Source: Pyrus communis (Eukaryota; Streptophyta; Magnoliopsida; Rosales; Rosaceae). From it: a stretch of 64,000 bases of DNA. How positions within the stretch are numbered: position 1 is the stretch's first letter; every line of letters begins with the position of its first letter. This document shows, piece after piece, positions 4,783 through 53,300 of the stretch. The stretch spans positions 7,781,751 through 7,845,750 of the forward strand of contig NC_084810.1 of the NCBI RefSeq assembly GCF_963583255.1, read 5' to 3'. The notes under the pieces are model-generated. The model saw only the letters and a program-made list of their open reading frames with translations, did not search any database and was not told where the DNA came from. A program made the translations under genes and the position numbers.

Positions 4783-4882
4783 CCCTACATCCCTACATCC
4801 CTACATCCATCCTCACACTAAACTCAATCTTTTTTTTAGCTTAGAATTCTTCTTTATCGTTTTCAAATCTTGAGTTCTTACA

Positions 4883-6182
4883 ATGTCTTCTTCAAGGAGA
4901 GCGTATAAACAATTGCAAGAGCAGCAGAAAAGGTTGTTGGCACAACAGGAAGAATTGGTCAATCTTGACCAACGTGGAGGTGGAGATGAGGCCTTCGCAA
5001 TGGAGGAGGATGAGGATGATCACCATAGAAGGTGGAGGGCCTCACATTCCCGCCGTATCATGGAAGCTATGGGTCAGATAGCCAAACCCAGACGTGCGGC
5101 AAACATCGATAGAAGAAGGGAAAGACGAGGTAAAGATCTCTTGGAAGATTATTTTATTCCCAACAGTGTTTTCCTTGATCATGTTTTTAGACGTCGTTTT
5201 AGAATGCAACGAAGTTTGTTCGATAAAATCATGAGTGATGTTTGCAACCATGATCCATATTTTGTGCAAAAAGAGGATGCTTTTCATATTCTAGGTCTTC
5301 TTCCTGAGCAAAAAATTATGGCTATATTGCGAATGCTTGCATATGGAGCATCTGCAAATCAAGTGGATGAGATCGCAAGGATGGGAAAAACAACAGTTCT
5401 GGAGTCCCTGATGCGGTTTTGCTCTGCAATTGAAGCCCTCTACACCAATGAGTACCTTCGGCAACCCACGACAAGGGACATGCAAAGGCTTCTGAGGAAG
5501 GGTGAGATGCGAGGCTTCCTTGGCATGATTGGAAGCATCGACTGCATGCACTGGACATGGAAAAACTGTCCAAGTGCGTGGCAAGAAGCTTATGGTGACA
5601 GAAAATGAGCCAAAAGCATCATTCTGGAAGCGGTGGCTTCTTTTGATACAAGGATTTGGCATGCTTTTTTTGGTGTTCCAGGAGCTCAGAATGACCTAAA
5701 TGTCCTTGCCCAATCTCCAGTGTTTGACGAACTGCTACAAGGAAATGGGCCGAGATGCACGTATTGGGTTAATGGTAATAAATACGAGGGACCATACTAC
5801 CTTGCAGATGATATTTACCCCAAGGTGGTCAACATTTGTCAAAACAGTGTCACACCTGCAGAGTGAAAAAGAGAAACACTTCGCAAAGTGTCAAGAAGGG
5901 TGTAGGAAGGATGTCGAGCGTTGTTTTGGTATCCTGCAAGCTCGTCGGGCCATTGTCAGGGTTGCAGCTAGAATGTTTGATGTCGAGGCTCTTCGATCCA
6001 TCATGATAACGTGTATTATTCTACACAACATGATTGTTGAAGACGAGTATGATTATGATGCTGTAGATGAATACGAGCCGGATCCGATGAACAACTCAAG
6101 AACACAAATCTACTATGCTCATGACCGGACCGAAGATCCCGTGCAACACGAGCCGTTGGAACGGGATGGACATTACAATTAA
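4883..6182 (+). pseudogene. PIF/Harbinger transposase (ALP1-like), broken
   Basis: This would be the DDE nuclease that excises and reinserts the element. The first open stretch (4883-5608, 241 codons) begins at an ATG and has a charged, Gln-rich N-terminus, then the conserved region with IARMGKTTVLESL and GSIDCMHW, whose D220 is the first catalytic acid. A TGA at 5606-5608 stops it right after AYGDRK, where relatives have a Gly codon. The same frame continues with ILEAVASFDTRIWHAFFG and QNDLNVL (second acid). At about 5855-5866 a frameshift moves the reading to KDVERCFGILQARRAIV, which holds the third acid (Glu), and CIILHNMIVEDEYD. The full length of about 430 codons is normal, so the gene is complete but has one stop and one frameshift. 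Confidence 0.9.
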
Positions 6183-9014: not shown

Positions 9015-11292
9015 TTAAAAGGGGTGGCTGTATATAAGGAGGCGCCCATAGTCCATCACTTATTGTTTGCGGATGATAGTTTCATTTTTGTGAGAAGTTC
9101 GTTGCAAGAAAATTTAGAGGTTAAGCACTTACTAAAAGTTTACGAGGATGCTTCTGGTCAAGCTGTTAATTATCAGAAGAGTTGTGTGGCTTTTAGTGAC
9201 AATCTTAATGAGTATGATGGTCAATTACTGGCGGATTGCTTGGGTGTAATAAGGGTTCCGTATCATGACCGCTATCTTGGTTTACCAGTATTTGTGGGTA
9301 AGGCAAAAAAGGCAACATTCTCTTATTTGAAAGATATATTGTGGAAGAAGCTTAATGGGTGGAGAGGAAGCTTGTTGAGTAGTGCGGGGAAAGAAATCTT
9401 GATAAAAACTGTGGCACAAGTTGTGCCATTGTTTACTATGCAAACGTTTTTACTTCCTAAGACACTTTGCGAAGAGCTAGGTCAAATGGTTGCTCAGTTT
9501 TGGTGGCAACGTGAATTGGGTAAACGTCGAATCCGTTGGATGAAGTGGAGTAAAATGTGTAAACCTAAAAGTGAGGGGGTTTAGAGTTTAAAGATTTATA
9601 CGCTTTCAACCTTGCTTTACTTGCTAAACAAAGATGGCGTTTAATCTAACACCCTGATTCTCTTGTTGCCCGTATTTTCAAGGCTAAGTACTACCTGAAG
9701 TCAGATTTTCTACAAGCTGCGGTGAGAACAAATGTGTCATATTGCTGGAGAAGTTTGGCGGAAGCGCGCGTAGTCATTTAGAGAGGTGCTCAATGGATAG
9801 TTGGCGATGGTTCGAAAATTAAAATCTTGGGGGATAGCTGGCTGCCTAGACAGAATTTCCTTAAAGTGTTAAGTGCTATTCCTCCGGGAGTGGCTCACGA
9901 TAGTACAGTGGATAGTTTGCTAGTGGATGAAGGTTGTGTCCGTTGGAATGGGGATTTAATTACAAGCATATTTTACGAAGAGGAGGCTCAGCTGATTCAG
10001 AGCATTCCATTAAGTTATTTCAAGCCACCGGATCGATTGATATGGGTCGCGGAGAAGGATGGCCTATTTTCGACAAAGAGCGCCTACTTGGTAGCTCGGA
10101 CAGGAGGAAATGTTGGAGGGGAGGAGACCACGACTTCCGAAATGGATGGGGAGTTGAAACATATGTGGAAGGCTTTGTGGAGAGCTTGTGTCCCTGAAAA
10201 GGTGAAGATTTGTGTATGGAGGTGCTGTTTAGATGCCTTACCAACACGGGCAAATTTGATGAGACGTAAAGTGATCACAAATGATGCTTGCCAGTTCTGT
10301 CAGGGAGAATCAGAAACTGTCGAACATGTGTTTTTAAGCTTCCCTAGATCAGCGTCCATATGGTTTGCTAGCCCTCTATGCTTGAGAACGGACCGACAAT
10401 TACATGGTGGATTCCGTATATGGTTGGTGGAGGTGGCAGGGTTACTGGCACGTCAAAGTTTTGATCTAGCTTTGATTCTAATATGGGGTATCTGGAAAGA
10501 ACGCAACTCTTTTTTATGGAATGGAAGGGCATTGAATCAGGTGGAGATTGTTTGCAAATCACAAGCATGGTTGCAGGAATTTAGGAAATGGCACGACTCG
10601 AAGAAGGGCAGCAGTCGGACAACCACTCATAAATGGGAGAAACCCACCGTGGGATGGGTTAAATGTAACTTTGATGGGGCGTGGGATGACCTAGGTCAAA
10701 GAGGGGGTGTTGGTGTCGTGGTGCGAGACGAGAAGGGGGACTTCGTTGCAGCCACTGCGCTGCAGTTCAGAGGGATTAGCTCGGCAATTTTGGCTGAAAT
10801 TATGGCTGCTCGGGCAGCAGTCCTATTTGCACGTAATATGGGAGTGTCGCAAATGGTAGTGCAGGAAGATGCAATGATGGTTATTAATGCGTTGCAGAAT
10901 GACAAGGTAGCACTATGCAATGGTATGTTTGGTAATGTTCTGCTTGACGCCAGGCAAATGTTGCAGTCTTTTCAGAATTGGAAGGCTACGTTTGGTCGAC
11001 GTGAGACGAACAAGGTTGCTCATCGGCTTGCGAGATTGGGATTGACTTTGGGTACTCGAATCTCATGGTTTGAGGAACCTTCTGATGTAATTTTTTATTT
11101 TCTTGTTGAGGATAGTATTCCTAGTTAATTTTTGAGGTGCAGGATGCTCTTTTTCCCTTGAATCGGGTTGAAAGCTTCGGCAAAATTTTTATCGAGGCCC
11201 ACTATTAGCACCCTATCCCTGGGACTGTATGATTTCTTGCTCATTAATGGAATATCGTACTTCTTTAAAAAAAAATTAAAAAAAAAAAAAAA
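9015..11292 (+). mobile_element. 5'-truncated L1-type LINE with poly(A) tail
   Basis: This is the 3' portion of a plant L1-like non-LTR retrotransposon: the end of reverse transcriptase, zf-RVT, RNase H, a short 3' UTR, and a poly(A)-rich tail at 11267-11292. The left edge falls just before the RT FADD motif, so endonuclease and most of RT are absent. Truncation at the 5' side with an intact 3' tail is the signature of incomplete target-primed reverse transcription. No convincing target-site duplication was found. Confidence 0.85.
9024..11128 (+). pseudogene. LINE reverse transcriptase end, zf-RVT and RNase H
   Basis: The frame from 9024 reads VHHLLFADDSFIFV (RT catalytic F-A-D-D), RYLGLPVFVGK and SSAGKEILIKTVAQ, typical of plant LINE RT. 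It breaks at about 9580, needing a 1-base shift. Further stops lie at about 9643 (TAA after RWRLI) and 9781 (TAG). From 9827 to 11128 it is open for 433 codons: zf-RVT around WRACVPEKVKICVWRCCLDALPTR with C-x2-C and H, and an RNase H (RVT_3) domain with acids at KCNFDGAW, LAEIMAARAA and VQEDAMMVI. The fourth position is in NKVAHRLARLG, where plant members often have His. The 3' half is well preserved and the 5' half broken. Confidence 0.88.
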
Positions 11293-17375: not shown

Positions 17376-18000
17376 AAAAATTAATTTAAAAAAAAACACT
17401 GTTAAAATGACGAAAATGCCCCTACCTTATTTGATACATTATTTTGGGACGCCTTTGAAGTTTTTTGTATTTTTATCCAAATATTTTGTTGAAGCTTGGT
17501 GACACCAAAAGCACTATTGACCTTTTGTGTTCTCTTTATATATAAGATTTGGGTTTCTTCTGTTGACTGCTACCAAAAATCGCCCGCACAGTTGGAATGG
17601 TGCTTCAACCATTTTCAGTATGCTTCTTATGTTATTGTCAAATTTTCTTAAAATCATAGTCTATAACTATGAAATATAAGAGCACAAGAAGTCAATACTA
17701 ACTTTTTCAGAGAGTGATTATCCACTTTTGCATTTAACATCTATTGTACTTCAAGTGCAAATTTTGATTCTGCCATAATCTTCTTAATTTCATTATTCTT
17801 ATCGGTAACAATTCCATTATACATTAGACCCATATAAAATGAGTACTCAAAAAGTCAAAATTTTATTGCGTCACTTGTACATGTTTTTTTTGTTTTTGGA
17901 GTGTTGTAATTATGAGGTCAAAAGTTCTTTATCTGAAATTGTTTCTCATTTTGGCAAATGAACGCATCCAATACGCTATTACACCCCATGAAATTATTAC
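17376..18000. other. Anonymous flank of the young retrotransposon
   Basis: No gene. The stretch at 17540-17620 (ttcttctgttgactgc ... ttggaatggtg ... ttttcagtat) resembles 29495-29580. The last 120 bp before the element (caaaagttctt ... ctattacaccccatgaaattattac) recurs at 28735-28920 and 29165-29385, showing a local repeat that predates the insertion. Confidence 0.55.
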
Positions 18001-18981
18001 TGTAAACACGAAAAAGTTCCTGAAAACAAGAAACAAGAATACGCGTACAAAATATATTTTTGTGTTTAATGATTTTGGGGTTACAATCTCTTTGTAATTT
18101 GATCCTCTGATTCTATCTTCGTAGGGTGTAGGTTTGTGGATGAGCTGTTGATCCAAAGGGCCGTCGGGGCTTGATCTAGGGATGAACAGTTGATGAACGG
18201 ATCTTTGAGGGCTTTTGAGCTTGATCTTGAAGACTGGGTGTATGGATTTCTTCAAGGGGCCGTCGGGGCTTGATCTTGAGGGTTGATGGATGAGCGGATC
18301 TTCAAGGGCTTTTGGGCCTAATCTTGAAGACTGAGTGTATGGATTTCTTCAAGAGGCCGTCGGGGCTTGATCTTGAGGGTTGATGGATGAGCGGATCTTC
18401 AAGGGCTTTTGGGCCTAATCTTGAAGACTGATTGGATGTGTGGATTTGTTGAGGTTGTTGATCCAAAGGGCCGTTGGGGCTTGATCTTAGGATGAATGGA
18501 TGATGAACGATGAACACTTTCCTCAAGGGCCGTCGGGGCTTGATCTTGAGTTGGTGGAAGTTCTTCAAGGGCCGTTGGGGCTTGATCTTGAAGGCGGATT
18601 TGACGAAGAACGAAGAGAGCTTTCTTGATCCTTCGGGATTTGCTTGAGAGCTTTAGAGTTTCAAGGCTTCTTCCTTTCTTCCTTTCTTTTTTCCTTCCTC
18701 CTCCTTTTTTTTTTTTTTTTTCTTCCTTTCCTTCCTCCCCTCTTAAATGAATGCCTTGGCCTCCTATTTATAGAATTCCAAAACTTGATTTTTGGATTTA
18801 AATAATCAGATGAAATAAATCATTTCTGCCAGATATTGACACGTGTCCTATTTGATGACCTTTCCAATTTATTTCGATTTTTCGTTGAGTCACACGCTAC
18901 ATGTAAAATTTATGTGACACGTAAGCGTTGAAATTTTAATTATTGGTTAACATTCATTTCACCGAAATTTCGATGTCTACA
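18001..18981 (-). repeat. 3' LTR of the gag-only retrotransposon
   Basis: Begins tgtaaacacg and ends gatgtctaca on the plus strand, so TG...CA in either orientation. It contains six degenerate copies of a ggccgtcggggcttgatc motif within longer internal repeats (about 105 bp, twice). It also has a polypyrimidine tract (18665-18740), a TATA box on the minus strand and a CACGTG at about 18840. Small minus-strand open frames (17929-18255, 18302-18568) are by-products of the repeats. Confidence 0.95.
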
Positions 18982-18995
18982 AATGCCCCCACTTC
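18982..18995 (-). other. Polypurine tract
   Basis: Immediately before the 3' LTR, the minus strand reads AAGTGGGGGCATT, a purine-rich stretch suited to prime plus-strand DNA synthesis. Confidence 0.65.
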
Positions 18996-20820
18996 AAGGC
19001 GCGTCGTAGACATGTGCTTGTCACGTGTAGAAGATGCGTTTTGAAGTCCCTTAATGTAGATGTCAACCCAAGGGCCGTCGAGGCTTGATCTTGAATTGAG
19101 CTGGAAATTTCTTCAAGGGCCATTGAGGCTTGATCTTGAGTTCGACTGGAAGATTTTCTGGTTTCCTCCTATCGTTGATTTTCCACAAGCTTAATCTTGA
19201 ACTGGGCTGGAAGATTCTTTTGGTCTCCTCCGAAGGTTTGAACTTACTCCTTTTATCAGGAGTTGAATTTGATTCAAGGGTGGTGAACACTTGATTTTGA
19301 ATCGGACTTGTGATTTCTTCAAGGGCCATTGAGGCTTGATCTTGAGTTCGACTGGAAGATTTTCTGGTTTCCTCCCATCGTTGATTTTCCTTTGTGCTAC
19401 TCTTGAACTGGGCAGCAGGATTCTTTTGGTCTCCCCCCGAAGGTCTACGAGCGGTTTCAGGATATGGCAGGCAAGTACGAAGTGGAGGTGCTGACCTGTT
19501 TCTTTGTTCAATCTTTCCAAATCGTATTGAATACGAATCGGAAAGATTGAAGTTTCCTTGTCCCTTCTCTGGCAGTGTATCAACCGTTGAAGATGACTAC
19601 TCGAGAGCAATACTAGGTAAGCAATCAGGAATAGGTTCCAGGTAGTCGGTTCCAGATCGGAAGACTGACTCCAAGTGCCGGCTGATTGCTTCTTTCACTT
19701 TGCCATGCGAGTAAGAACAAGGACAAAGGAAAAGACAGGGAAAAAGCATGATATGAGATACCTTTACTTTCGAAGAAGCAGCGAATGAATCAACACATAT
19801 ATTTGTTGTGCTTGTCTCCACATGCTTCGATGTATCATTTTCACTTGCCTTACTTGCTCCCCTTTGCAGAAGTGGTATTTCCTTATGCAGGTTTAGCATC
19901 TTCTCTTGTAGTATTTGTCCTCCGATGCAGGAGTTGAATGCAACCTTTGCATTTAAATGGTGCTTCACTCCTTGGTGGCAACTGGTTTGAGTGGAGGTTC
20001 CGACATATTGCTTCCTCTGTCCTTGTCTTGGCAGGTGAGAACAAGGGCAAAGGAAAAGATAGGGAAAAAGCATGATATGAGATACCTTTGCTTTCGCCCT
20101 TGATGATATGAGATACCTTTGCTTTTGAAGAAGCGGTGAATGAATCAGCACATGCTTCAATCTATCGTTTCCTCCTGGGTCATCTGTACTCCAGGCATCT
20201 GGTATCTTCAAAGGTTGAATAGGTTTTCTCAAAGGAAGAAGAAGAATTGTGTATTTCGAGAGGCTTTGCTGGGAGTGCGCCCTCAGAGGTGAGGAAGAGA
20301 TGGGCATTTTCTTCAGGTCTGCCTTGCCATAAGAGACGAAGGTCGACACATATAGGGATTTCTTAATAGCAAGTGGTGGTACCGTTCTTTTACCCTTGTC
20401 GACAAACGTCTCTTCGATATCTGAACGATGCCTCTTCGATTTCTGAACGACGCCTCTTCGATTTCTGAACGAGCGCCACTTTTGACAAAGTTGCACGCGT
20501 TTTCTGAAAAGCAGAGAAAGCGTCGCCGAACTTTGCGCTTGTCGGCTAAAGACGTGTAGTTGTGATGATGGCCTCCACGTGTTCTCGACTTTGTCAGATA
20601 TCTTTTGACAAAGTTGAACGCATTTTCTGAAAAGCCACGAACGCGTCGCCGAACTTCACGCAGGAAAATCCGGATTTTTGAATCGGTGGTCGTGTCGCTT
20701 GGCTTTTTACAGAGGTATCGATCACTCCAACATACACACTCTGAAAATTGCCCATTCTTGAAAATTGTCTCCGGCCTTTTGAGAATTATCTTTATCCACC
20801 CATTCTCTCTGAACACCTTT
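18996..20820. other. Internal 3' region of the retrotransposon
   Basis: No recognised protein domain. Minus-strand open frames of 299 codons (20496-19597) and 167 codons (20816-20313) overlap and look incidental. Visible structure: ggccattgaggcttgatc repeats related to the LTR motif (19060-19400); two copies of a segment with aagcatgatatgagatacctttg (19745-20120); and repeated cctcttcgatttctgaacga (20415-20475), preceding aaagttg ... cgcgttttctgaaaag in two copies (about 20490 and 20610). Confidence 0.5.
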
Positions 20821-20827
20821 GAAAAAA

Positions 20828-21460
20828 ATGACTAACTCATCGAACCTTTGCTTAGATTTGAGTCTCAGCAGCGATCCGGTTGCACCCGGTCAAGGTAATG
20901 TATGGCGCCCTTCTTTTTTATCTTCTAACGGTCCTCTTACAGGTGAAGACTCTGTGATGCAGGACGCCACAACAGCTACAATAGTAGCTAGGAACCTCCT
21001 CACTCCAAAAGATAGTAGGCTGCTGTCAGGACGGTCCGATGAGTTGGCCGTTCAAGAGTCCCTCGCTCTTAGCGTTCAGTGTGCAGGCTCTGTGTCCAAC
21101 ATGGGCCAACGCCTACTTGCTCGCTCCCGTCAGGTTGAATCGTTGATGGCAGAGGTGGAAAGTCTCAAGCAAGAGATCAAGCAGCTGAAGTATGAGAATA
21201 GAAGTTTGCACGTGCTTGCAAACAACTATTCGACGGGCATGAAGAGGAAGCTTGATGAGCTGCAAGAATCTGAAGGTCGGATTCAAAGTGATCGTCAAAG
21301 GTTTTCGTCTTTCCTCCAGAGGCACCTTTTTCCTGGGTCTTCCAGCGTTTGGCCAAGTATTGAGGCCTGGAATGCTCTAGCTTCAATGCCTCCCGCTTCG
21401 ATGCCTTCCGCTTCTAGAGTTTTGCCAAGTAATGGGGCTTCACGTGAGCACCCTTTGTGA
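20828..21460 (+). CDS. Antisense coiled-coil ORF of the retrotransposon
   Basis: 210 codons from ATG 20828, running opposite to gag. The N-terminus reads MTNSSNLCLDLSLSSDPVAP, followed by ESLALSVQCAGSVSNMGQRL and a clear coiled coil (RQVESLMAEVESLKQEIKQL ... KRKLDELQESEGRI). A Pro/Met/Ser-rich tail follows (SMPPASMPSASR). I have seen similar ORFs in plant Ty3/gypsy elements. Additional antisense ORFs between the coding region and the 3' LTR are described for the Tat branch. No enzymatic domain is visible; function unknown. It is intact. Confidence 0.7.
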   Translation: MTNSSNLCLDLSLSSDPVAPGQGNVWRPSFLSSNGPLTGEDSVMQDATTATIVARNLLTPKDSRLLSGRSDELAVQESLALSVQCAGSVSNMGQRLLARSRQVESLMAEVESLKQEIKQLKYENRSLHVLANNYSTGMKRKLDELQESEGRIQSDRQRFSSFLQRHLFPGSSSVWPSIEAWNALASMPPASMPSASRVLPSNGASREHPL

Positions 21461-21462
21461 AA

Positions 21463-21468
21463 GCTCCA

Positions 21469-21505
<37 letters not shown>

Positions 21506-21645
21506 TACACACTTGTAATTTCTTGGAGATTAATGGACATGTTTTATTTTATTCAGTGTATTGTGCTAAATACAGATAAAACATATACATCACCATCCAT
21601 CATCATTACTTTTTATTTTATTTTATTATTTACTATTATTTATTT

Positions 21646-21683
<38 letters not shown>

Positions 21684-21841
21684 CTTTGCTTTCGGTGGCA
21701 CTGATCCACCATTCGTTTATATATATATATATTTCAGATGGTGCCAGAAGCACCATCATTGTTTTTTTCTTTCTTTTTATTATATATATATATATATATT
21801 TTTCTTTTTGCACATGGTTCCGGAAGCATCATCATTGTTTT

Positions 21842-21894
<53 letters not shown>

Positions 21895-21960
21895 GGGATG
21901 GTGCTTTCCATCCAGATTCCATTATTATTTTTTTCTTTATATGGTGATCTGCAAGGCTGA
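21463..21960. repeat. Poly-T and (TA)n low-complexity block
   Basis: Runs of T up to about 30 bases (21471-21504, 21648-21677) and several TA stretches with T tails. Two copies of a ggtgccagaagcacc / ggttccggaagcatc-type motif are embedded. Open frames here are artefacts of composition. Confidence 0.8.
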
Positions 21961-22005
21961 GTTTGTGGGTGAAAACCCAGGCCGAGTCCGAGAGAAGACG
22001 GAGGA

Positions 22006-22225
22006 AATCTTTGGGTGTGAGTTGACAAACTTTGATTTTGTCAATCACATTCAAAGGCAGCAGCAGAGGCAAGCAGACGGATGAGATCTTTGGGTGTGAG
22101 TTGACAAACTTTGATTTTGTCAATCACATTCAAAGGCAGCAGCAGAGGCAAGCAGACGGATGAGATCTTTGGGTGTGAGTTGACAAACTTTGATTTTGTT
22201 GATCACATTCAAAGGCAGCAGCCAT
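22006..22225 (+). repeat. 79-bp tandem repeat, nearly three units
   Basis: The unit tttgggtgtgagttgacaaa ... ggcagcagcagaggcaagca recurs with starts at about 22010, 22089 and 22168 (period 79). The third copy changes near its end (cagccatggcgg). It borders the captured host block on its 3' side in element orientation. Confidence 0.85.
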
Positions 22226-22442
22226 GGCGGAGGTGCAGAAGCAGCCAGAGCTTGAAGTAGTGCAAAGCGTCGAGCTTCATGATCGGCTAGTCGTTTGACA
22301 GCGGTCACTGAAGTTCTTCGCCGATTTTGACCACGGTGGCCAAAGTGAAGCTGAGGGACTTGCAGGCGAGGAGCTGCATGGATGGAGAGGAAGAAGTGCC
22401 TTGTCGTGTTCCGTCACTTTCTCTTAACCTCTCTTACTGACT

Positions 22443-23681
22443 TCATGTTCTTTTGTTGCAGAAAAAAAGGGGAGCGGAGCTCTTGGATTTGATTGGAAAT
22501 TCATAGGGTGGTTTAGACCATTGATCAGGACAGTACCACTGAAGTGAAGGTGCTCGCTCATCGGAGAAGAAGCTACAAGCCTCCTCACTGCTAAAGAAGT
22601 TGTGCTCCTCCACCTTCACGGAAGGCTGATAGCTCTTTTGGAACGGAAAGCAGTTCATTGACGATGATGACGGCAAGGACGACGAACAACAGTTGAATTT
22701 GAGTGAAGTGGAAGCCGGTAAGGGGAATCTTGGGGTGGAACCGGAAACGGCGCCGAAGTAGTTATTTGACGACGAGGAGCCGCTGGAGGACGAAGTTGTG
22801 GAGGTGGCAGAGGCCGAGGCGTTCAATAGAGAGTTCATTTCTTGCATTTCTCTGCTACAAGGCTCAGAGGACATGTCAGCAACAAGGGGAGCAACAGCAG
22901 CTGTACCGCCCAACCTGCTCATGCTCAGAACCTTGACTTGGAGCTGGAGGAATTTAACATAATTGATTATCTCATCCAGCATTGAAGCTTTGTCCGTCTT
23001 GTTGGCGTTGGGAACCAGCTCCTGCAGAGCCTTCATTTTCTCTGCAACTCTCTCTCTCCGTAATCTTTCGGCTATGCTGTGCGGGTCATATCCGTTGTAG
23101 TCGGAGAAATTGAGCTCCCTGGGGAAGAAACTCTGCGTCCGCTGTTGTTGTACTTGCTGCTGTAATTGTGGTACTTGAACCGAGCTTGGGTTCTCGGGTA
23201 AGCTACTGGAGCTCGGGTGGTTGTCGAACTGAATCGGCTTTGAAATGGGCTGGTTGCTGGTGCTGGTGGGTGCCGAAGCATTCACCGGGTCCTTCACTTC
23301 CACAGTGGTGGTTGACGGGTCGTTAAGCCAGAGCGAAGGGTCGTTCTCTCCCTGATCGGCGGCGGCGGCCATGGACACCAGGAAGAACCACTCAGTATCG
23401 GTCACTTCCTGATCAACGACGGCGTTGTCTGCTGACGTGTCGGCGCCAGAAATCAACGAATTCAGGTCTCGGAGGACTTTCTTGCGGTACTCTTGTTCGG
23501 CGGCGGACGTCGTCGTTTTCGCCCTGGCCTTAACCTTGTCCTGCTTGTCTTTATAAAATCCTTCGCCCCATCCAAGAACGGCGCCGGCGCTGGCGCCGGA
23601 GTAGTCGTAGGAAGACTGCCAGAAGATGGCGTAGGTCCAGCTCTCGCGCGCGTCTTCGATCAGGGCCTGGAGGCGCTGCAT
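22443..23681 (-). CDS. Captured chimeric transcription-factor ORF (MYC2/bHLH/HD-Zip)
   Basis: 412 codons from an ATG within the motif [18 protein letters not shown]; the frame is open for about 35 codons further upstream. Residues 1-105 are the start of a bHLH-MYC_N domain as in MYC2 ([45 protein letters not shown]). Most of the following activation region is deleted. Residues about 112-200 match the MYC2 middle part ([33 protein letters not shown]). About 201-270 is a bHLH domain of the LRL/UNE12 type ([48 protein letters not shown]) lacking its normal flank. The tail (about 280-412) is Ser-rich and ends with [23 protein letters not shown], like the C-terminus of HD-Zip I proteins, with no homeodomain. 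Exons are joined without introns, suggesting capture from mRNA. Expression is unknown. Confidence 0.8.
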
Positions 23682-23799
23682 GAGGGTCTCCTGGTTGAAG
23701 GTGGTGGAGGCTACCTTGCTCCGGGTGTGCGCACCATGTGCAGCAGGTGGGGTTTGGCGGAGGAAAGCGAGTCAGGCTCGATGGGAGTGGTGTGGTTGA

Positions 23800-24193
23800 G
23801 TTAGACGCCGATTTCTTGTGAGTCGACCAGAACCAGAGGCCGAGTCGGATCGGATACAGTGCCGGAGACTGCAATCCCGCCAGAATCATACCCAATTGAG
23901 GTCTTTAATCACTTTCTCGTACTCTCGGTCTCTGACAACGAATGTGCTGACAGGGACGCCGCCTTGCCAGGGATAGCCCTGAGATCGTATTCAGAATCAT
24001 CGCTGAAAACTCGACTCCGCTGGGAATTGGAGAAGCTCATCGAGGTTATCGACGAGGACTGAGCCGGAACGAGAAGAGGGTCATCGATTGAGGGCATATC
24101 GTCGCCTGTGTTGAGCTCAGAGAGCATGCTCTGGACCCACCCGGAGAGATCCGACGGATTGTAGTGGAAAATTGGGCCTGCAGCGGATCCCAT
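23800..24193 (-). pseudogene. Captured DELLA protein fragment (GRAS, GAI/RGA-like)
   Basis: DELLA proteins repress gibberellin responses in the nucleus. From an ATG at 24193 the minus strand reads [20 protein letters not shown], the VHYNP motif region (first residue F, not V), then [27 protein letters not shown], and after an in-frame TGA LKTSIGYDSGG and RPLVLVDSQEIGV. These are consecutive segments of a DELLA N-terminal half. The TGA (RK-stop-LKTS) sits where relatives have an Arg codon, fitting CGA to TGA. The DELLA and LEQLE motifs upstream and the whole GRAS domain downstream are missing, so it could not act as a DELLA repressor. The reading ends in TAA at about 23800, where it meets the MYC2-derived part in another frame. 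Confidence 0.85.
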
Positions 24194-24239
24194 TATCTGC
24201 TTCCATGATCATATGGAGGGGACGATCGATCACTCACTA

Positions 24240-24455
24240 TTTTTTTTTATTATTATTTTTTGTTTTTTATTTTTTTATTTTTTTATTTATCTATTTTTTT
24301 ATTTATCTATTTTTTTATTTATTTTTTTGTTGAGAGAGAGAGAGAGAGAGCTGGGCTTGGATTTGGGCTAGTGGAATCCGGCTGCTCGAGCGAGCTGGGG
24401 ATGATGATGGCACTGGGCAGAGAATATATATATTTTTTCTAATACATAGTAACAT

Positions 24456-24494
<39 letters not shown>

Positions 24495-24625
24495 AGTAGA
24501 GAATATATATATATTTTTCTAATACATAGTAACATATGTATTTTTTTTTTTTTTTTTTTTGAGTAGAGAATATATATATTTTTTTCTAATACATAGTAAC
24601 ATATGTATTTTTTTTTTCTTTTCTT
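24240..24625. repeat. Low-complexity and about 60-80-bp tandem repeats
   Basis: T-rich and ATTT-rich stretch, a (GA)n run at about 24332-24350, then three copies of a unit with agagaatatatatatttttctaata and catagtaacatatgta separated by poly-T runs. The (GA)n plus tgggcttgg segment (24330-24420) could be captured 5' UTR (CT-rich on the minus strand); this is inference. Confidence 0.6.
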
Positions 24626-24794
24626 TTGTAATAAAATTGACTTTCTTTAATGAAACATTTATTTATTTATTTTGATGTGACTGTACTTGAAGTTTTGAAG
24701 TTTCAAGTTGCCTACGTACTCTTCCAAAGAAGAGATCAAGTCATAACGTAGTTCAAATGAGTGATGGTTTTTTTATGATGATTTTGCCGTACAC

Positions 24795-24950
24795 AGTTTA
24801 TGCTCTTGCGGGCCAGGAGCGTTTGGTGCCGTTTGCAGTTTCAGCTCATGCAGGCAAGGAGCTTCTTGGTGCCGTTTGCATTTTCAGCTCATGCAGGCAA
24901 GGAGCGTTTGTTGTCGCCTTTTAGGCTCGTGCGAACGAGGAGCTTTTTTT
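24795..24950. repeat. Short tandem repeat between gag and captured block
   Basis: Three imperfect copies of a roughly 50-bp unit with gcaaggagc ... ggtgccgtttgca ... ttcagctcatgcag. They lie on the 3' side of gag and code for nothing recognisable. Confidence 0.65.
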
Positions 24951-24964
24951 TTTTTTTGAATTTG

Positions 24965-27682
24965 TCAAACGATCTTAGAGAGGCATTCCTTGCGATCTTC
25001 ATAGCAAGGAGTCTTGACTGAGTGATTGAAGAAGTCTTTTGGGAAGAAATCGCGCATCGTAATGGCAACAGACGATCTTTGTGTCATAATTTCGTCATCC
25101 TCAACATTTTCATGTAGCTTTGAAGGTTGACGGTAGCTGCTTTGCCCCCTTTCCGTTTGGTGAACTTGTGGAGGAAACCTATGTTTCTTGTGCATTTTCT
25201 TTGGAGTGACATAAGTCCATCCTTCAACTTCACTTGACTTGACTGACATGGTTTTGGAGCATGCCCCCAGCGGTTGAGGTGAAGATTTTGAGTTCAAAGA
25301 GCCAGAAGTGACGGAGGTGTAGTTTGATTTCACCACATCATTAAGATCTAGCTCGATGATCCCTTTCTGAGCCAACTTCATGATGAGATCTTTTAGCACA
25401 AAGCACTTTTCCGTCGGATGACCAATGAAGCGGTGGAATTTACAATACCTTGGACTGTCAGTACGGTTCATCTCTTCCGGCCGTTTGCACTCAGGTAGGT
25501 CGATCACCTTTTTGTCAAGCAAGTCATCTAACATGGCAACCACGTCAGAGTCGGGGAATGGATAAGTCTTCTCCTCAAGCTCCTTCAAAGTGCGTCTACG
25601 TATCTCTTGATCACGAAAAGCTTCGGTTTGAATCGCCTTGCCTCGTGTATGGGTTTTGACTGGAGTTGTGTTGACCGTCATTGCTTCCTTGGTGGGTTTC
25701 CACGCAGCCTTATCCACCTTGGGCCCCAAAACTTTGTCATTTTTGTAGTCGGTGATCTGTTCTTTCTTCCCATGACGGGTGATGCTTAACTCCATATCAT
25801 GGGCGCGGGTGGCTAACTCCTCAAATGTTCGTGGTTTGATGCCTTGAAGGATGTAGTGTAGTCCCCACTGCATGCCTTGAACGCACATCTCGATGGCGGA
25901 GGTTTCAGAAAGCCGATCTTTGCAATCCAGGCTTAATGAACGCCATCTATTTATGTAGTCGATGACAGGTTCATCTCTCCACTGTTTCGTACTGGTCAGC
26001 TCTAGCATGCTTACAGTACGACGAGTGCTGTAGAAACGGTTGAGGAATTCCCTTTCTAGCTGGTCCCAACTGTTGATAGACTCGGGTTCGAGGTCGGTGT
26101 ACCAGTCAAAAGCGTTACTCTTCAGCGAACGCACGAACTGTTTGACGAGGTAGTCTCCCTCTGTCCCAGCATTGTTGCAAGTTTCAATGAAATGGGCGAC
26201 AAGTTGCTTCGGGTTGCCTTTTCCATCGAACTGCATGAATTTTGGGGGTTGATAACCCCTTGGCATCTTCAAAGCATCAATCTTCTTGGAGTAAGGCTTT
26301 GAGTACAGTACGGAGTCGTGCGAGCTTCCTTCGTACTGTGTCTTGATAGTGCTTGCAATCATCTCCTGTAGCTGCTGGATAGAGAGAGATCCCATGGATG
26401 TCATTGTTTGGTCTAGCTTCGGCTTCTCTTCAACTTTCTCCACTGGTGGCTCCTCTTCTTCGTCGTCTTCTTTCTTTAATAGGCCAATATTTGGGTCGAC
26501 TTTCACGTCGGGCAGCGCATCTAGTTGGTTGACAAGTGCGGCAATCTGCAAGTCCTTCTCTTCCACAGTCCGTGTGAGCTTTGCGATTACTTCATTCATC
26601 TGAGCTAGCTGCTCCTCGATTGAAGTTGCTCCAGTGGTCATGACTTGCATGGTTGTACTGCCGCTTGGATCAGGGTCGAAGAGTAGGGACTCTGAGTATT
26701 TCTTCGGGCTTTCGTCTTCTTTACCTTCTTGAACCGTGATGTAGAAAACATCTTGGATCTCCTCTTCAGTGCCGTTCTCTTGAGTTTGTTGGCATGAAGA
26801 TTTGCCAGTGTGGACGATGATGCGCCTCCTTACCTTCAGTGGTCCTTTTGTGTCAACCTCTAGGATTGCTTGGCGCTCCATCCTTGAAGGAATCAAGCTT
26901 CGAGCGTCGTCTTTTTCTCCTAACCCATCGAGCTTTTCTCCCTTTGGGGTTGTCTTCCTCTTTCCAAAAGGCTTACCATTATCTTCAAATATTTCTGAAG
27001 CTGATCGTTGCAGAGGAGAGATAGCTGTGTTGCTTTGTTTCTTAGGCTTTAACAACCTTTCAAAAACAGAGCTTTGGGATGTCGGCGCGTTAAGCCTCTT
27101 GAAGACAGAGGTTCGGTCTTGACCACCAATGCGATTAAGCACTGAAGTTCTGGAGCTTGAATGGCTCATCCTATTGAAGACCGACATCCGAGGGGAGGGT
27201 TTAGGCTCTTCTTGGTCTTGTTCAATGCTCACGCTGATGTGTTGAGCGCTAGCTTTCTTCACTTTGCTTGAAATCTTCACGGGTGCATTTGGTGTGAAGC
27301 CAAGTTCAGCCTTGTTGTTGTCAACTCCATAATCATGCTCTTTCAACTTCTTTTGAGTCTCGGTGAGGTCGCGATCTTTGTCGTTGACGGTGTTTGAAAC
27401 CTTCTTTCCAAGATTTGAAGAGGAAGCAAAGTCATGCCTAGCCTTTGACATGAGTTCGTAGGCATTTGGGTTGAAGCCTTCTTCGGTCCTCTTAGTTGGA
27501 AGAGAGCTTGGTTTCACTTTGACGCCATGCTGTGCCTCCAGACGGTTGATGAGTCCGGCGGTTTGCAAGTTTTTCTCCTCTGCAGTCTTTATCAGCCTTG
27601 CAATTGTTTCCTTCATCTGAACCAGCTGTCTTTCAATGGAGGTAGTGCCGATAGTCATGACTTGTTCTTTGTTTGAAGCCAT
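24965..27682 (-). CDS. Gag-type protein of the young retrotransposon
   Basis: 905 codons from the ATG at 27682 (MASNKEQV). The open frame extends upstream into the LTR, but that part is not expected to be translated as protein start. Residues about 8-60 form a coiled coil ([19 protein letters not shown] ...), and nearly the same segment recurs near residue 340 ([19 protein letters not shown] ...), an internal duplication. The gag core follows ([51 protein letters not shown]). Near the end is a CCHC-like motif [14 protein letters not shown]. The region between the two coiled coils ([26 protein letters not shown]) is like parts that lie further downstream in autonomous relatives, so gag is rearranged. 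It stops where protease would begin. It would build the particle; polymerase must come from another element. Confidence 0.88.
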
Positions 27683-27732
27683 GGACTGTGCTTGAATATC
27701 TTGAACGGAGACAGAGATGAGAGGTAGAGATT

Positions 27733-27750
27733 GTCCCACTGGGCGTGCCA
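27733..27750 (-). other. Primer-binding site
   Basis: Four bases inside the 5' LTR the minus strand reads TGGCACGCCCAGTGGGAC. It starts with TGG, the complement of a tRNA CCA end, at the correct place for priming minus-strand DNA synthesis. I could not assign the tRNA from memory. Confidence 0.7.
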
Positions 27751-27754
27751 AATT

Positions 27755-28734
27755 TGTAAACACGAAAAAGTTCCTGAAAACAAGAAACAAGAATACGCGT
27801 ACAAAATATATTTTTGTGTTTAATGATTTTGGGGTTACAATCTCTTTGTAATTTGATCCTCTGATTCTATCTTCGTAGGGTGTAGGTTTGTGGATGAGCT
27901 GTTGATCCAAAGGGCCGTCGGGGCTTGATCTAGGGATGAACAGTTGATGAACGGATCTTTGAGGGCTTTTGAGCTTGATCTTGAAGACTGGGTGTATGGA
28001 TTTCTTCAAGGGGCCGTCGGGGCTTGATCTTGAGGGTTGATGGATGAGCGGATCTTCAAGGGCTTTTGGGCCTAATCTTGAAGACTGAGTGTATGGATTT
28101 CTTCAAGAGGCCGTCGGGGCTTGATCTTGAGGGTTGATGGATGAGCGGATCTTCAAGGGCTTTTGGGCCTAATCTTGAAGACTGATTGGATGTGTGGATT
28201 TGTTGAGGTTGTTGATCCAAAGGGCCGTTGGGGCTTGATCTTAGGATGAATGGATGATGAACGATGAACACTTTCCTCAAGGGCCGTCGGGGCTTGATCT
28301 TGAGTTGGTGGAAGTTCTTCAAGGGCCGTTGGGGCTTGATCTTGAAGGCGGATTTGACGAAGAACGAAGAGAGCTTTCTTGATCCTTCGGGATTTGCTTG
28401 AGAGCTTTAGAGTTTCAAGGCTTCTTCCTTTCTTCCTTTCTTTTTTCCTTCCTCCTCCTTTTTTTTTTTTTTTTCTTCCTTTCCTTCCTCCCCTCTTAAA
28501 TGAATGCCTTGGCCTCCTATTTATAGAATTCCAAAACTTGATTTTTGGATTTAAATAATCAGATGAAATAAATCATTTCTGCCAGATATTGACACGTGTC
28601 CTATTTGATGACCTTTCCAATTTATTTCGATTTTTCGTTGAGTCACACGCTACATGTAAAATTTATGTGACACGTAAGCGTTGAAATTTTAATTATTGGT
28701 TAACATTCATTTCACCGAAATTTCGATGTCTACA
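27755..28734 (-). repeat. 5' LTR of the gag-only retrotransposon
   Basis: Matches the LTR at 18001-18981 along its whole length by eye. The only difference noticed is 16 rather than 17 T in the poly-T run. Because the element is on the minus strand, this is the promoter-bearing LTR. The near-zero divergence points to insertion very recently on an evolutionary scale. Confidence 0.95.
28517..28526 (-). promoter_or_regulatory. TATA box in the 5' LTR
   Basis: On the minus strand this reads CTATAAATAG, a strong plant TATA element. The same sequence is at 18764-18773 in the other LTR. It would start transcription towards gag. Confidence 0.6.
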
Positions 28735-29426
28735 ATTACTTCAAAAACCAAAACCTTATTTGGTGTCATTTGTACACGCCTTTTATTTTTTTAAGTGTTG
28801 TTGTTTTCATGGGGTCAAAAGTTCTTGATCTGAAATATTTGTTTTTCAATACTTATATAATGGCTATATTAACCAAACAAATATCTTATTTTGGAATGGT
28901 AATTGAGAACTAAAAAAATTAAAAAGTCATATATTTTTTTTAGTACAAAAAGTGCTGTATTTAATTCTCAACAACTTTACTATTTTTTATATTTAAATAA
29001 AAATAATTAAAGAGCTAAAATTTGGACCGAGCAGAGCGACTTGCTCATTGGCCTGAATTTTTTTGGCCCGTGGGTTGAGTAAGGGCTTTTTACATATTCA
29101 GCATGTAGTCATTGAAAAAATATAAGGCCGCTCTGCGACCATTTCATCGAAAGAAAATAAAATATCACATGAAATACGCTATTACACCCCATGAAATTAT
29201 TACTTCAAAGACCAAAAATTTATTTGGTGTCATTTGTACACGCCTTTTATTTTTTAAGTGTTGTTGTTTTGATGGGGTCAAAAGTTCTTGATCTGAAATA
29301 TTTGTTTTTCAATACTTATATATTGGCTATATTAACCAAACAAATATCTTATTTTGGAATGGTAATTGAGAACTAATAAAATATCTTATTTTGCATGCCC
29401 TGACGCTTTGTTATTTGTTGGTTGAG
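28735..29426. other. Flanking local repeat (about 200 bp, two copies)
   Basis: The stretch from attacttcaaa through aatatcttattttggaatggtaat occurs at 28735-28910 and again at 29200-29380. A third, partial copy lies at 17880-18000, to the left of the retrotransposon. These must have been neighbours before the insertion. No gene. Confidence 0.6.
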
Positions 29427-33177: not shown

Positions 33178-34938
33178 TCAATTCTGAAGGCGATATAAAG
33201 GAATAGCGAGCAGATTCTTGGCCCTTGAAACTGCAAGACCAAACTCCTCAGTCATATCCAACTCATTTGGCAACATGTTATCTGGAAGTTCCCAATCAAA
33301 ACAATGCACAAGCTGAGCCAACACAAAGTGTACCACAGTAATCCCTAACTGCATTCCAACGCAACGTCTTCTGCCAGAGCCAAACGGTAGAATCTGAAAG
33401 TGGTGTCCTCTAACATCAACGTTGCTATCCTCAAACCTCTCTGGTACGAACTTCTCTGCATCTTCCCAAGCACTTGGGTCTCTCCCGATTGCCCACACGT
33501 TTACGATAACGCGTGACTTTTTCGGTATGTGGTAGCCATCGACAGTGCAATCTTCGATGGCTGCATGAGGAAGCAACAATGGTAACACGGGATGTAGCCT
33601 CATGGTTTCCTTCACTACCATATCCAAATACTCCAATTTCTCCGTGTCTGATTCCTCCACCATTCTATTCAGACCTACAACATTTTTTATCTCCTTTTGG
33701 ACTTTCTTCATAACCTGTGGATGCCTCATGAGTTCCGAGAGCGCCCACAGGACAGTTGTTGATGATGTGTCCGCTGAGGCCACTAACATGTCCTGCCAAT
33801 AAATTTTCCATTGCTAGATGAAGTATATATAGTCGGGTGACATATGTACATAGATGACAATTTAATGTACATGATAAATCATAAATTTGTATCGTCAATA
33901 ATCAATCTTGTATATTCAAACAAATGTTGACCTTATGGTTCAAAAGCACACAATCTGAGACCACGTCATGCTAAATTGTCTAACAAGAAACAATTTCGTT
34001 TTAATTTGAAGTAAAGCAAGATTAAAAAGACAAATATGTAAAATGATGATACGTAAACTTACCGACATCATGGCTTTGATATTCAAGCGTTCGATTCGGT
34101 AGTCCGATTCTTCAGACCCCATGTAGGCCAGCATGGCATCAGTAAAGTCCTTCGTTCTTTCTGCATCCTTGGATTGAAGATGCTCGTCAATAATCTTCTC
34201 GTAAAAATCATCAAACACCTTGTTAACAGCCTTCATTTTTTTAGTGAGCCCTTGCAGGTCAAGCGGTGCAATACAAGGAAAGAAATCTCCCAAGTTAGGT
34301 ACTCCTGCTAGTTTCAAACCCTCTTTCATCACAGACACGATACTCCTCCCGCCAAACTCCTCGTCCTTGTACTTCTTCCCAAACACCATCCGGCAGGTCA
34401 TGTCAATCCCGAGCGACATGACCTTGTCAGTGAGATTGGCAATGCGTCGATTATTGGCGTCCTCTTGAACAGATTTTATCAAGAGAGCAACCTCTTCTCT
34501 CCTCATGGACTTGAAAGAGTTGATCTTTTGGTTGCTAAGTAATTCGAGCATGCAAAGCTTTCGCATGTTCGTCCAATACGAGCCATACTCAGCAAAGCTC
34601 AAGCTTTTTTGCCCAAAGATGAGGTGCTTTGCACCTTCATTAGGTGGTCTATTTGCGAAATTAAGGTCGTGTGTTTTGAGGAACAGCTCGGCCGCTCGTG
34701 CGGAAGAGACAACGACAGTATGCTGGAGGCCTAACCTCAAGTACATGATGTCACCGTATTTCTGGGCTAGTTGACGAAGATCCATGGTAGGGAACTTCCC
34801 TAACAAATGGAGGCTGCCAAAAATAGGAAACCCTCTCGGACCAGGAGGTAACATTTTGTTCTTGGTTTTTGATATGCATGCTTGCACGATGCGAACAAGG
34901 GCAAGCACCCCAATTGTTGCCCAAATCCAAAGTGCCAT
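33178..34938 (-). CDS. Cytochrome P450, CYP71 clan, CYP736A-like (2 exons)
   Basis: Membrane-anchored haem mono-oxygenase of the endoplasmic reticulum. Exon 1 is 34938-34063 and exon 2 is 33792-33178; a 270-bp intron with GTAAGT donor and GGCAG acceptor sits in phase 0, and together they give 496 aa, the normal size. Visible features: hydrophobic anchor (residues 2-22), hinge PPGPRG (31-36), I-helix A299-D300-T301, ExxR E354-R357, PERF 409-412, and haem loop [10 protein letters not shown] with Cys436. No stops or frameshifts. I chose ATG 34938 (MALWIW) because an upstream in-frame TTG is not a plant start. The sequence is closest in my memory to CYP736A enzymes, some of which hydroxylate biphenyl phytoalexins in apple relatives. 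That substrate is inference; other CYP71-clan reactions are possible. Confidence 0.92.
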
Positions 34939-35058
34939 ATTGATATTGCGCTCTTTGGGAGTTCTCAAATGGTTGAGCTAAGCTAGCTAGCAAAGTTTTT
35001 TTAAGAGAGGTTTCCAGCTATTTCACTTTGAGTATTATGAATGCTAGCTGATGCTTCG

Positions 35059-50309: not shown

Positions 50310-53300
50310 AGGTATGTCTAGTAGGGAAGTTAGTTGTCTGGCATATAGTGCAACCACGCACACCATCTTGCGTGAACGACACTATTTTACTAACTTAATA
50401 CCCAAGAAAGCTCATTTGACAACTCTCTCAAGCCTATCCAACCTAATTGAAGGATACGAAAAAGCACGTATCATGTTGTCTAATGGTACAATATTGACCA
50501 TTAAGATCATGGTTCAGAATTCTTTGTATCACTTCATATGAATATGGCCAGAAGCATATTCACGAGAAGTTGGAATGACTGCTGAGTGGATTGTACATTA
50601 CAACCATTCGTAGCATAGAAGCCCACAGTGTAGCCGGCCCTATGACTAAGTTCCAGGACACTTTGTTGCTTTGGCATGATCATTTGGGACATCCTGAATG
50701 TGACATGATGCACCGTATCCTCAAATTTTCTCATGGGCAGAAGTTATATCCCTATGTTGGAGTTCTGCCATGCAAAGCGTGTTCTTTAGGAAAGTTGAAT
50801 ACTCAACCCTCCCATACAAAGATTATTCACGACCCCCCTAAATTTCTTCAGAGGATTTAAGGGGACATTTGTGGACCAATCCAACCAACATGCGGACCAT
50901 TTAAATATTTTATGGTGTTGGTTGATGCATCAACAAGATGATCACATGTTTGCTTGTTGTCCACATACAACGCCATGTTTGCTAAACTTCTAGCTCAAAT
51001 CATTAAGCTAAGGGCTCACCACCTTGATTGTCCAATTAAGTCAATTCGACTAGATAACGCTGGAGAGTTTACGTCACAGACTTTTGATGATTATTTCATG
51101 TCAATAGGGATTGATGTGGAACATCCTGTTCAAACCCAAAACGGCCTAGCAGAAGCTTTCATAAAGCGTCTTCAAATGATAGCTCAGACTTTGGTTATGC
51201 GAACCAAACTACCGGTATCTGCTGGGGCTATGCAATATTGCACACAGCTATGTTGGTCGCCTGAGGCCCACCACTACTCAACCACATTCACCGTTACAGT
51301 TGGTCATTGGATATGAGCCTGACATCTCACATTTACGGGTGTTTGGGTGCACCATTTATGTGCCAATAGCGCCGCCGCTACGTACCACAATGGGTCCTCA
51401 AAGAAAAATGGGAATCTATGTCGGTTATGATTCGCCATCAATTGTTCGCTACTTAGAACCCTTGACAGAAGATCTTTTTACAGCATGTCTTGCGGATTGT
51501 CACTTTGATGAGACAGTCTTCCCGTCGTTAGAGGGAGATAAACATGTGAACGTTCCCCTAGAAAGCCGCGAATTGTCGTGGTATGCTCCCACTATGTTCC
51601 CACTATGTCTCATTTAAATCCCCACACTACCCAGTCTGAAAATGAGGTGCGTCGAATTATAGATCTTCAGAGCATTGCTCAAAGCATGTCGGATGCTTTT
51701 AATGATCTAGCTAAGGTGACAAGATCACATATACCCGCTACAAACACACTTGCAAGGATAAATGTACCCCGCGTACGTCAACAACCCACCTGGGAAGGCT
51801 GGACCGTCCCAGAAGGTGGGGAGGCCACACCTTCCACGCAGCAAGGTATGTTGACAGCTAGCCAATCATTTGCTCCGACCCTGAAGCGTGGCAGACCCCT
51901 TGGTTCAAAGGATTCACAAACCTGGAAGAGGAAAATGGCACCAACTAGTGACCTTAGTTTGAATCCGACCATTGTTCAGTCATCCGTTCCAACGTATGAA
52001 GTTATTGTAGATTACGGTAATGCTTCAGATAAAACATGTCAGCCTCTCGAGAATCGTGAGATTTCGGTTCACTACACAGTATTGGATGAGGTTTGGACTA
52101 GGAATAAGATGATCGTCAACAATGCATTCTCGTACTCAGTAACTACTGACATCATGCTTAGCGATGACATTGAACCACGTTCCGTCGATGAATGCCGACG
52201 TAGAACCGATTGGTCAAATTGGAAACAAGCAATCCAGGTCGAACTCGATTCGATCGTGAAACGTAAAGTGTTTGGACTTATTGTTCCTACACCACCACGT
52301 GTGAAGCCTATTGGCTACAAGTGGGTTTTCGTGAGGAAGTGTAATGAGAAGAATAAAATAATGCGATACAAAGCATGCCTCGTAGTGAAAGGCTTCTCTT
52401 AGCACCCAGGGATTAATTATGGGGAGACGTATTCCCCCGTAATGGACGTTATAACGTTCCACTACCTAATCAGCTTGGTAGTTTCCGAAAAACTGAATAT
52501 GTAGCTTATGGACGTGGTAACCACATATCTCTATGCGAATCTAGATACGGAAATCTACATGAAAATTCTAGAAGGACTTCCATTGACTGGTTCAAATAGT
52601 TCTAGACCACGGAACACTCTCTCAATTAGGTTAAGGAGGTCATTCTACAGATTAAAACAATTCGGGCGGATGTGGTATAACTGTTTGAGTGAATATTTGA
52701 CAAGTCAGGGTTATGTGAACAATGAACTATGCCCATGCGTGTTCATAAAGAAGTCATATTCCGGATTTGCAATCATTGCAGTTTATGTTGATGACATGAA
52801 TATCATTGAGACTCTCGCAGAGCTTGAAGAAATTGCTGCACATTTGAAATTGAAATTTGAGATAAAAGATCTTGGGAAAACTCGATATTGTCTCGGCCTG
52901 GAGATCGAGCATTGTTCGGATAGAATCCTAGTACATCAATCGAACTACACCCAAAAGATGTTGCGTCGTTTTAATGAAGATAAAGCGAAGCCTTCGAGTA
53001 CACCCATGGTTGTTCGAACTCTATATGCTAAATGAGATCCCTTCCATCTAAAGGAGGATGAGGAAGAGATTTTGGAACCCGAAGTTCCTTACCTAAGTGC
53101 AATTGGGGCTTTATTGTACTTGGCTCAGTGCACTAAACCCGACATCTCCTTCGTTGTGAATCTTTTGGCAAGATACAACAATACGCCCATACGCAGGCAC
53201 TGGAATAGTGTTAAACACATTTTCCACTACCTCAAAGGTACTACGAATTTGGGTTTGTTCTATACCTACGAATCTCCAAGTGTTACCATCCCCTATGGCC

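Follow-up and report, generated by a model that had tools for sequence, protein, structure and literature searches.

The window, i.e. the whole 64,000-nucleotide stretch of Pyrus communis DNA analysed here, carries a young LTR retrotransposon on its minus strand at 18001-28734. The element is bounded by a 5' LTR of 980 bp (27755..28734, minus strand) and a 3' LTR of 981 bp (18001..18981, minus strand), both of which start with TG and end with CA, and the sole difference between the two is one T in a homopolymer. The LTRs are flanked by the target site duplication ATTAC (17996..18000 on the left, 28735..28739 on the right), and a paralogous empty site within the window, at 29160-29303, has a single ATTAC. 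A presumed primer binding site, read from the sequence, adjoins the 5' LTR (27733..27750, minus strand) and is followed by a gag gene of 905 codons (24968..27682, minus strand; PF03732 Retrotrans_gag, E=9e-14). Pfam searches of 15 ORFs (the 442-codon frame described below, the DELLA frame, gag, and 12 more) matched gag but no pol family, i.e. no protease, RT, RNase H or integrase, and the window copy therefore does not classify as an autonomous Ty3/gypsy element. This corroborates the earlier note on this DNA, which had described a gag-only LTR element.

Further towards the 3' LTR, an antisense ORF of 215 codons (20813..21460, plus strand) appeared coiled-coil-like by weak matches, none of which was above a family cut-off. 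The stretch between gag and this ORF is called the slot hereafter, and 2.9 copies of a 79-bp tandem repeat (21996..22222) lie beside it. Rfam gave zero matches across the window, and NCBIfam no match above cut-off. No substitution was found in ~980 aligned LTR bases, and the insertion of the window copy has an upper age bound of 0.24 to 1.18 My under assumed rates of 6.5e-9 to 1.3e-9. Elsewhere in the window, cytochrome P450 coding pieces were seen at 33181-34977 (minus strand), ~5 kb past the element, as were other transposon remains at 4874-6182 (Plant_tran), 9782-11128 (RVT_3/zf-RVT), 51542-53035 (RVT_2), and 56905-58710 (DUF4371/hAT dimerisation).

The slot of the window copy combines at least seven host segments drawn from five host genes, all in sense orientation on gag's strand. 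Read 5' to 3' on that strand, the order is DELLA/GAI, a 63-bp stretch, MYC2a, MYC2b, RHL1 bHLH, an RHL1 N-terminal piece, PB1, and an ATHB-6-like tail (all coordinates that follow in this paragraph are on the minus strand). The DELLA/GAI fragment (23785..24168) matched PF12041 (E=2.8e-9) and Pyrus and Malus GAI-like proteins (tblastn E~1e-56), contained two in-frame stops, and was in a different reading frame from the 442-codon open frame, which extends from MYC2a to beyond the HD-Zip tail (22443..23771). The 63-bp stretch between DELLA and MYC2a (23700..23762) was also present in L029, L030, L032, L038, and L039, which are other members of the family described below, and searching one reading frame of the stretch next to DELLA against the PDB found nothing. 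MYC2 segments a (23370..23710) and b (23085..23374) were 97.1% and 96.9% identical to the native gene L021, and are joined to each other across a deletion. Compared with a Pyrus MYC2 protein, 106/114 and 92/95 of their residues were identical, and the bHLH-MYC_N domain (E=2.2e-24) is truncated, covering positions 1-110 of the 181-position profile. Next comes an RHL1-type bHLH made of four spliced exon pieces (22863..23084; donor L024), in which the match to the HLH profile extends to the last position (5-53 of 53), followed in permuted order by a piece from the N-terminus of that RHL1 gene (22806..22864). A ~110-bp piece of a PB1-domain gene (22708..22819; 93.8% to native L036, where PF00564 (PB1) was matched with E=3.6e-10) and the C-terminal tail of an ATHB-6-like HD-Zip I gene (22509..22718; 98.6% to native L023) complete the mosaic.

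The earlier note had placed at least four host genes where pol should be, namely a DELLA fragment on gag's strand, two MYC2 segments across a deletion, an LRL/UNE12-type bHLH, and an HD-Zip I-like tail. All four named donors turned out to be right, and the PB1-domain gene adds a fifth. The bHLH assignment was partly sustained: a bHLH is present, but RHL1/LRL appears to be a better fit than UNE12. The best-matching Malus proteins were named RHL1-like and many matches were RHL1 or bHLH66-like, while the top row was UNE12-like; compared with the Malus protein P0123, there were 4 differences at 75 compared sites.

Searching the genome (487 Mb, 29 contigs) with the cargo yielded 69 first-look candidates, of which 40 were scored, and 46 matches were listed. 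Among these 46, the full mosaic was present at two places, the window and C15:2615191-2616960, showing that the mosaic has been amplified. The copy on C15 was 99.94% identical to the window mosaic over 1771 bases, had its own target site duplication (AGATG), and its LTR pair was identical at 1120/1121 aligned positions. Mapping of donors and joins recovered native relatives for MYC2 (L021, 97%), the ATHB-6-like gene (L023, 98.6%), RHL1 (L024, 95-97% per piece), and the PB1 gene (L036, 94%), with no parts of the retrotransposon family around any of these four in the fetched stretches. The DELLA piece was 97% identical to other family members (e.g. L022) and only ~88% to the native DELLA genes L043 and L044, which suggests that this piece is old and was probably passed between elements, and that the window copy did not capture all of its pieces anew. 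A 284-residue Malus protein (P0250) with a DELLA domain only was listed on 22 contigs and could represent a pseudogene or a further captured copy.

The MYC2 pieces carried three states (a two-residue SA insertion, V, and P) that were common to the four Pyrus MYC2 proteins in the comparison but absent from the Malus orthologue, two paralogues, Prunus, Argentina, Rosa, and Fragaria, from which I infer a host that is Pyrus or very close to it, and an uptake of MYC2 after Pyrus had split from Malus. Overall, the cargo differed from the native genes at 28 coding sites, 24 of them on the cargo lineage and 24/28 being transitions; differences already in the donor allele at capture are indistinguishable here from later changes in the cargo. 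These 28 coding differences, set against no LTR substitution, indicate that the cargo is older than the window insertion and was copied along with the element, with which the C15 copy agrees.

How the pieces were acquired can be read in part from the donor genes. In the native RHL1 gene, three introns split the stretch that matches the cargo, and in the cargo each of them has been removed precisely at its GT-AG borders. The bases common to both sides of the joins were CCATG (MYC2a-MYC2b), TGAC (MYC2b-RHL1), AG (RHL1 bHLH-N-terminal piece), CCTC (RHL1 N-terminal piece-PB1), and CCG (PB1-ATHB-6), where joins 1 and 3 (CCATG and AG) were counted by script and the other three were read from printed contexts. 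These 2-5 shared bases per join are raw counts, and joins of 2-4 bases carry little weight by themselves. Taken together, intron loss, sense pieces, and shared bases at joins point to template switching onto spliced mRNA, and it is well supported by these features that such switching onto host mRNAs made the cargo. The earlier note had suggested repeated template switching onto mRNAs, and in this respect the DELLA piece departs from it, since it probably came from other elements.

I consider it highly probable that the best overall explanation is a gag-only family with a tolerant slot, in which switching onto mRNAs and between elements creates mosaics that are then multiplied by transposition. 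The slot, occupying the place of pol, would tolerate insertions, the enzyme would be supplied in trans, and reverse transcription would take place inside the particle. Here, the enzyme would jump at short shared sequences from the RNA of the element to spliced host mRNAs packaged with it and back, and also between the RNAs of family members, before transposition would multiply the resulting mosaics. That host mRNA is packaged, that template switching took place, and that pol acts in trans are the steps that I infer, and inter-element exchange is also needed because the DELLA piece is old and common to members. A pol-bearing relative is a plausible helper, and L045 may represent one: at L045:3238-4398 (minus strand), an integrase core (PF00665, E=9e-13) and a zinc-binding domain lie directly before host cargo, in an element that has the antisense ORF and repeats in common with the window element, and whose fetched stretch covers the integrase end.

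The permutation of RHL1 (window:22863-22864) falls on an exon end, with two shared bases, and a back-spliced (circular) RNA is thus a possible candidate for its template. At L032:5699-5850, the ATHB-6 piece is inverted in the slot, as opposed to the sense pieces of the window copy, which counts against simple sense-mRNA template switching, as this does not yield inversion. Four separate pieces of the L048 slot (query positions 1140-1574, 1573-1745, 1738-1805, and 1803-1884) matched one place on C15, and four corresponding pieces matched a place on C1, an arrangement that looks exon-like in a stretch that includes the cyclin domain. The same slot was listed at 100% at two sites on C4 (99.7% in another listing), and its OSCP piece and an unnamed piece beside it were 99% identical to other places on C3. 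Some captures therefore look recent, given the 99% match of the L048 OSCP piece to C3 and the 98.6% match of the ATHB-6 piece to its native gene.

Loci matching parts of the window cargo proved to be the same retrotransposon with different cargo. Besides the window, 19 members were compared (L022, L029-L035, L038, L039, L040, L042, L045, L047-L051, and L054), and a host piece was counted as identified if it matched a Pfam family or, at the nucleotide level, one of the donors given above. Identifiable host pieces were present in 17/19 members, 13 of the 19 having been found via similarity to the window cargo, in what is a small sample. The remaining six were picked without regard to host pieces, L047-L051 by the slot edge and L054 by gag, and host families were found in 5/6 of them (4/5 when L048 and L049, which are nearly identical, are treated as one). 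The slot edge was treated as part of the backbone, since several members have it inside their repeat region.

The cargo varied widely. KNOX1 and DELLA pieces were found in L022 and L042; MYB, glutaredoxin, and MYC2 in L029; MYC2 in L030 and L040; cyclin and MYC2 in L031; LRRNT_2 and ATHB-6 in L032; V-ATPase c (ATP-synt_C) and ATHB-6 in L033; DELLA, dioxygenase N, and ACR10 in L034; DELLA, F-box, and MRS2-like in L035; MIP and AUX/IAA in L039; MatE and ATHB-6 in L045, after the integrase; CCCH finger and ankyrin, in one 490-codon frame, in L047; PB1, OSCP, and cyclin in L048 and in L049, which is 99.7% identical to it; acid phosphatase and tubby in L051; and PB1 and peptidase M20 in L054. L038 and L050 had zero named host families, and no family parts were present at L052 and L053, which had 59-bp matches. 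At L034:4469-5203 (plus strand), the DELLA N-terminus and the dioxygenase N-terminal domain share one open frame. The DELLA and KNOX1 pieces of L022 and L042 sit on strongly diverged backbones, with gag stretches that are 97% versus 81% identical to the window copy.

Both flanks of the slot were inside the fetched stretch for 16/19 members, with one side missing for L040, L045, and L054. The gag of L054 was listed at 100%, while the sequence in its slot region is unrelated, its 2501 fetched bases matching no part of the window element; for gag in the genome at large, 40 of 925 first-look candidates were scored. The distance from gag to the antisense ORF was 3145-3964 bp in ten members, including the window copy and the C15 copy, and departed from this in L038 (2715 bp), L039 (6620 bp), and L042 (2124 bp); L047-L051, in which the antisense ORF is beyond the fetched stretch, were left out of these distances. 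Slot contents were mostly distinct: when 18 slots were compared pairwise, 131 of the 153 comparisons had at most 2% of 20-mers in common, and the highest values were 0.94 for L048/L049, 0.39 for L030/L032, 0.26 for L022/L042, and 0.23 for L034/L035. MYC2 pieces across members cover different parts of MYC2, and those of L029, L031, and L040 had zero derived changes in common with the window copy, compared with two for L030. More than one uptake of MYC2 is the simpler reading here, the alternative being the trimming of one old uptake. Extending this to the whole family, which would number hundreds of copies, I lean towards regarding it as a continuous exon-shuffling machine, in which nearly every copy would have its own mosaic of host mRNA pieces from several genes, the slot would keep a roughly constant length, exchange of mosaics between near-identical backbones would outpace gag mutation, and mosaics would be multiplied as units.

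Other origins of the cargo were weighed against this. Chance similarity was ruled out by the E-values and the native relatives. A single ordinary host gene with this domain order outside LTR elements was not found either: for the best 120 of 2591 matches, the top local alignment never spanned over half of the query, and the full mosaic was found only at the two element copies among the 46 genome matches listed. It is very unlikely that a nested DNA transposon loaded with gene fragments by DNA-level capture had entered the element, even though Pack-MULE, CACTA, and Helitron elements are known carriers of gene fragments, as far as the available part of PMC13317346 describes them, and the cargo is roughly flanked by a single weak inverted pair of 24 nt (75%; 22445-22468 with 24579-24602). 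Most of 25 inverted pairs out of 69 were AT simple repeats, the position of the slot was constant in the 16 other members with both sides fetched, and introns had been lost exactly. It is this intron loss that speaks strongly against a nested DNA transposon, the inverted-repeat scan alone not being decisive.

A different emphasis, which overlaps with the explanation preferred here, is that cargo spread mainly by recombination between members while capture of host mRNA was rare and old. The DELLA piece, being closer to L022 than to native genes, fits this, as do the 886 bp that L030 and L032 have in common at 98.8%, the 732 bp common to L034 and L035 at 99.5%, and the two derived MYC2 changes that the window copy and L030 have in common. 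Nevertheless, I regard it as possible but rather unlikely, as the ATHB-6 piece is so close to its native gene, the OSCP and adjoining unnamed pieces of L048 look like recent captures from places on C3, and the MYC2 pieces of L029, L031, and L040 have no derived change in common with the window copy. The preferred reading remains that of switching onto mRNAs as well as between elements.

The earlier note had called the cargo a chimeric regulator, a role that is putative at best given the stops in DELLA, the truncated MYC2 N-domain, and no clear selection. For the 442-codon frame to be a selected product, i.e. a dominant regulator in the form of a truncated MYC2/RHL1 fusion, appears very unlikely. 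The frame remains open, its HLH profile reaches the end, and 4/5 of the joins within it are in frame (p=0.045, counted before the PB1 piece was recognised, and suggestive at best). Of all differences from the native genes, 14/28 were nonsynonymous compared with a neutral expectation of 0.67 under the observed mutation spectrum (one-sided p=0.046), but for the cargo lineage alone this was 13/24 (p=0.13); ignoring transition bias, the test gave p=0.0009 for all differences and 0.010 for the cargo lineage. Moreover, the RHL1 replacements fell on otherwise conserved sites in 4/4 cases, near the 3.57 expected without constraint, the bHLH-MYC_N domain ends at profile position 110 of 181, and the DELLA part carries stops. 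A structure model of the frame had a mean pLDDT of 51.1 and a pTM of 0.25, with an alignment of 20 sequences that were MYC2 relatives only.

The avoidance of conserved sites by changes was also tried as evidence for constraint, and was seen in MYC2a (0/5, p=0.017). The test was dropped because the stop-bearing DELLA piece showed the same pattern (1/22, p=0.006), and it showed nothing elsewhere (MYC2b 1/3, RHL1 4/4, HD-Zip tail 1/5). The substitutions thus appear to show no clear selection, and the cargo is by default taken to be mostly passenger sequence. If anything acts, it would most likely be RNA and not a chimeric protein, with putative small RNAs against the donor genes arising from sense cargo and possible antisense read-through out of the antisense ORF.

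The closest known case is maize Bs1, an LTR retroelement reported to carry segments of three host genes and a chimeric gene (PMC13317346, available part). The window element fits the Bs1-like kind in having spliced host gene segments inside its LTRs. As described there, Bs1 is a single element with three segments, whereas members of the pear family differ in the mosaic that fills a common slot, and one copy alone combines five donors and includes permuted pieces. In rice and sorghum, host genes have been captured inside LTR elements in large numbers (PMC3726574), and this is told genome-wide in the part of that paper considered here, whereas the pear case concerns a single family whose cargo slot is fixed and holds mosaics of several genes. 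Retand-type gypsy elements have a long stretch before the 3' LTR, an antisense ORF, tandem repeats, and some non-autonomous members (PMC11963269, in part). The window element resembles them in its long stretch before the 3' LTR, its antisense ORF (20813-21460, plus strand), and its tandem repeats; it differs in being without pol, and host-mRNA cargo is not reported for Retand in the available part of that paper. TRP28 (PF04195) was absent from the antisense ORF among Pfam matches to E=1, at filters that drop most weak matches. Pack-MULEs, Pack-CACTA, and Helitrons are similarly mobile collections of gene fragments, but the pear element is class I and its cargo is from spliced mRNA. Related background, as far as the available parts of these sources go, concerns additional ORFs (PMC7264820), template switching in Triticeae (PMC1950507), and Rosaceae elements and HODOR (PMC11197308, PMC6445120).

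The larger finding is a cargo slot that, judged from sequence comparison, holds different host-gene mosaics across one family. No described family with a variable host-mosaic slot was found by title and abstract start among the open-licence papers listed, which makes this a provisional statement, and the accessible parts of the literature have so far presented gene capture by LTR elements as single elements (Bs1) or as genome-wide lists. For annotation, the finding is a warning that such elements may give plausible but false chimeric gene models. A family of differing mosaics would make capture measurable, including which mRNAs are packaged, how often switching takes place, and how long the joins are, and each step would be datable because a single genome contains the donors as well as the junctions and the young duplicates. 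It would also become measurable whether the shuffled coding pieces give rise to new genes or to small RNAs targeting the donors.
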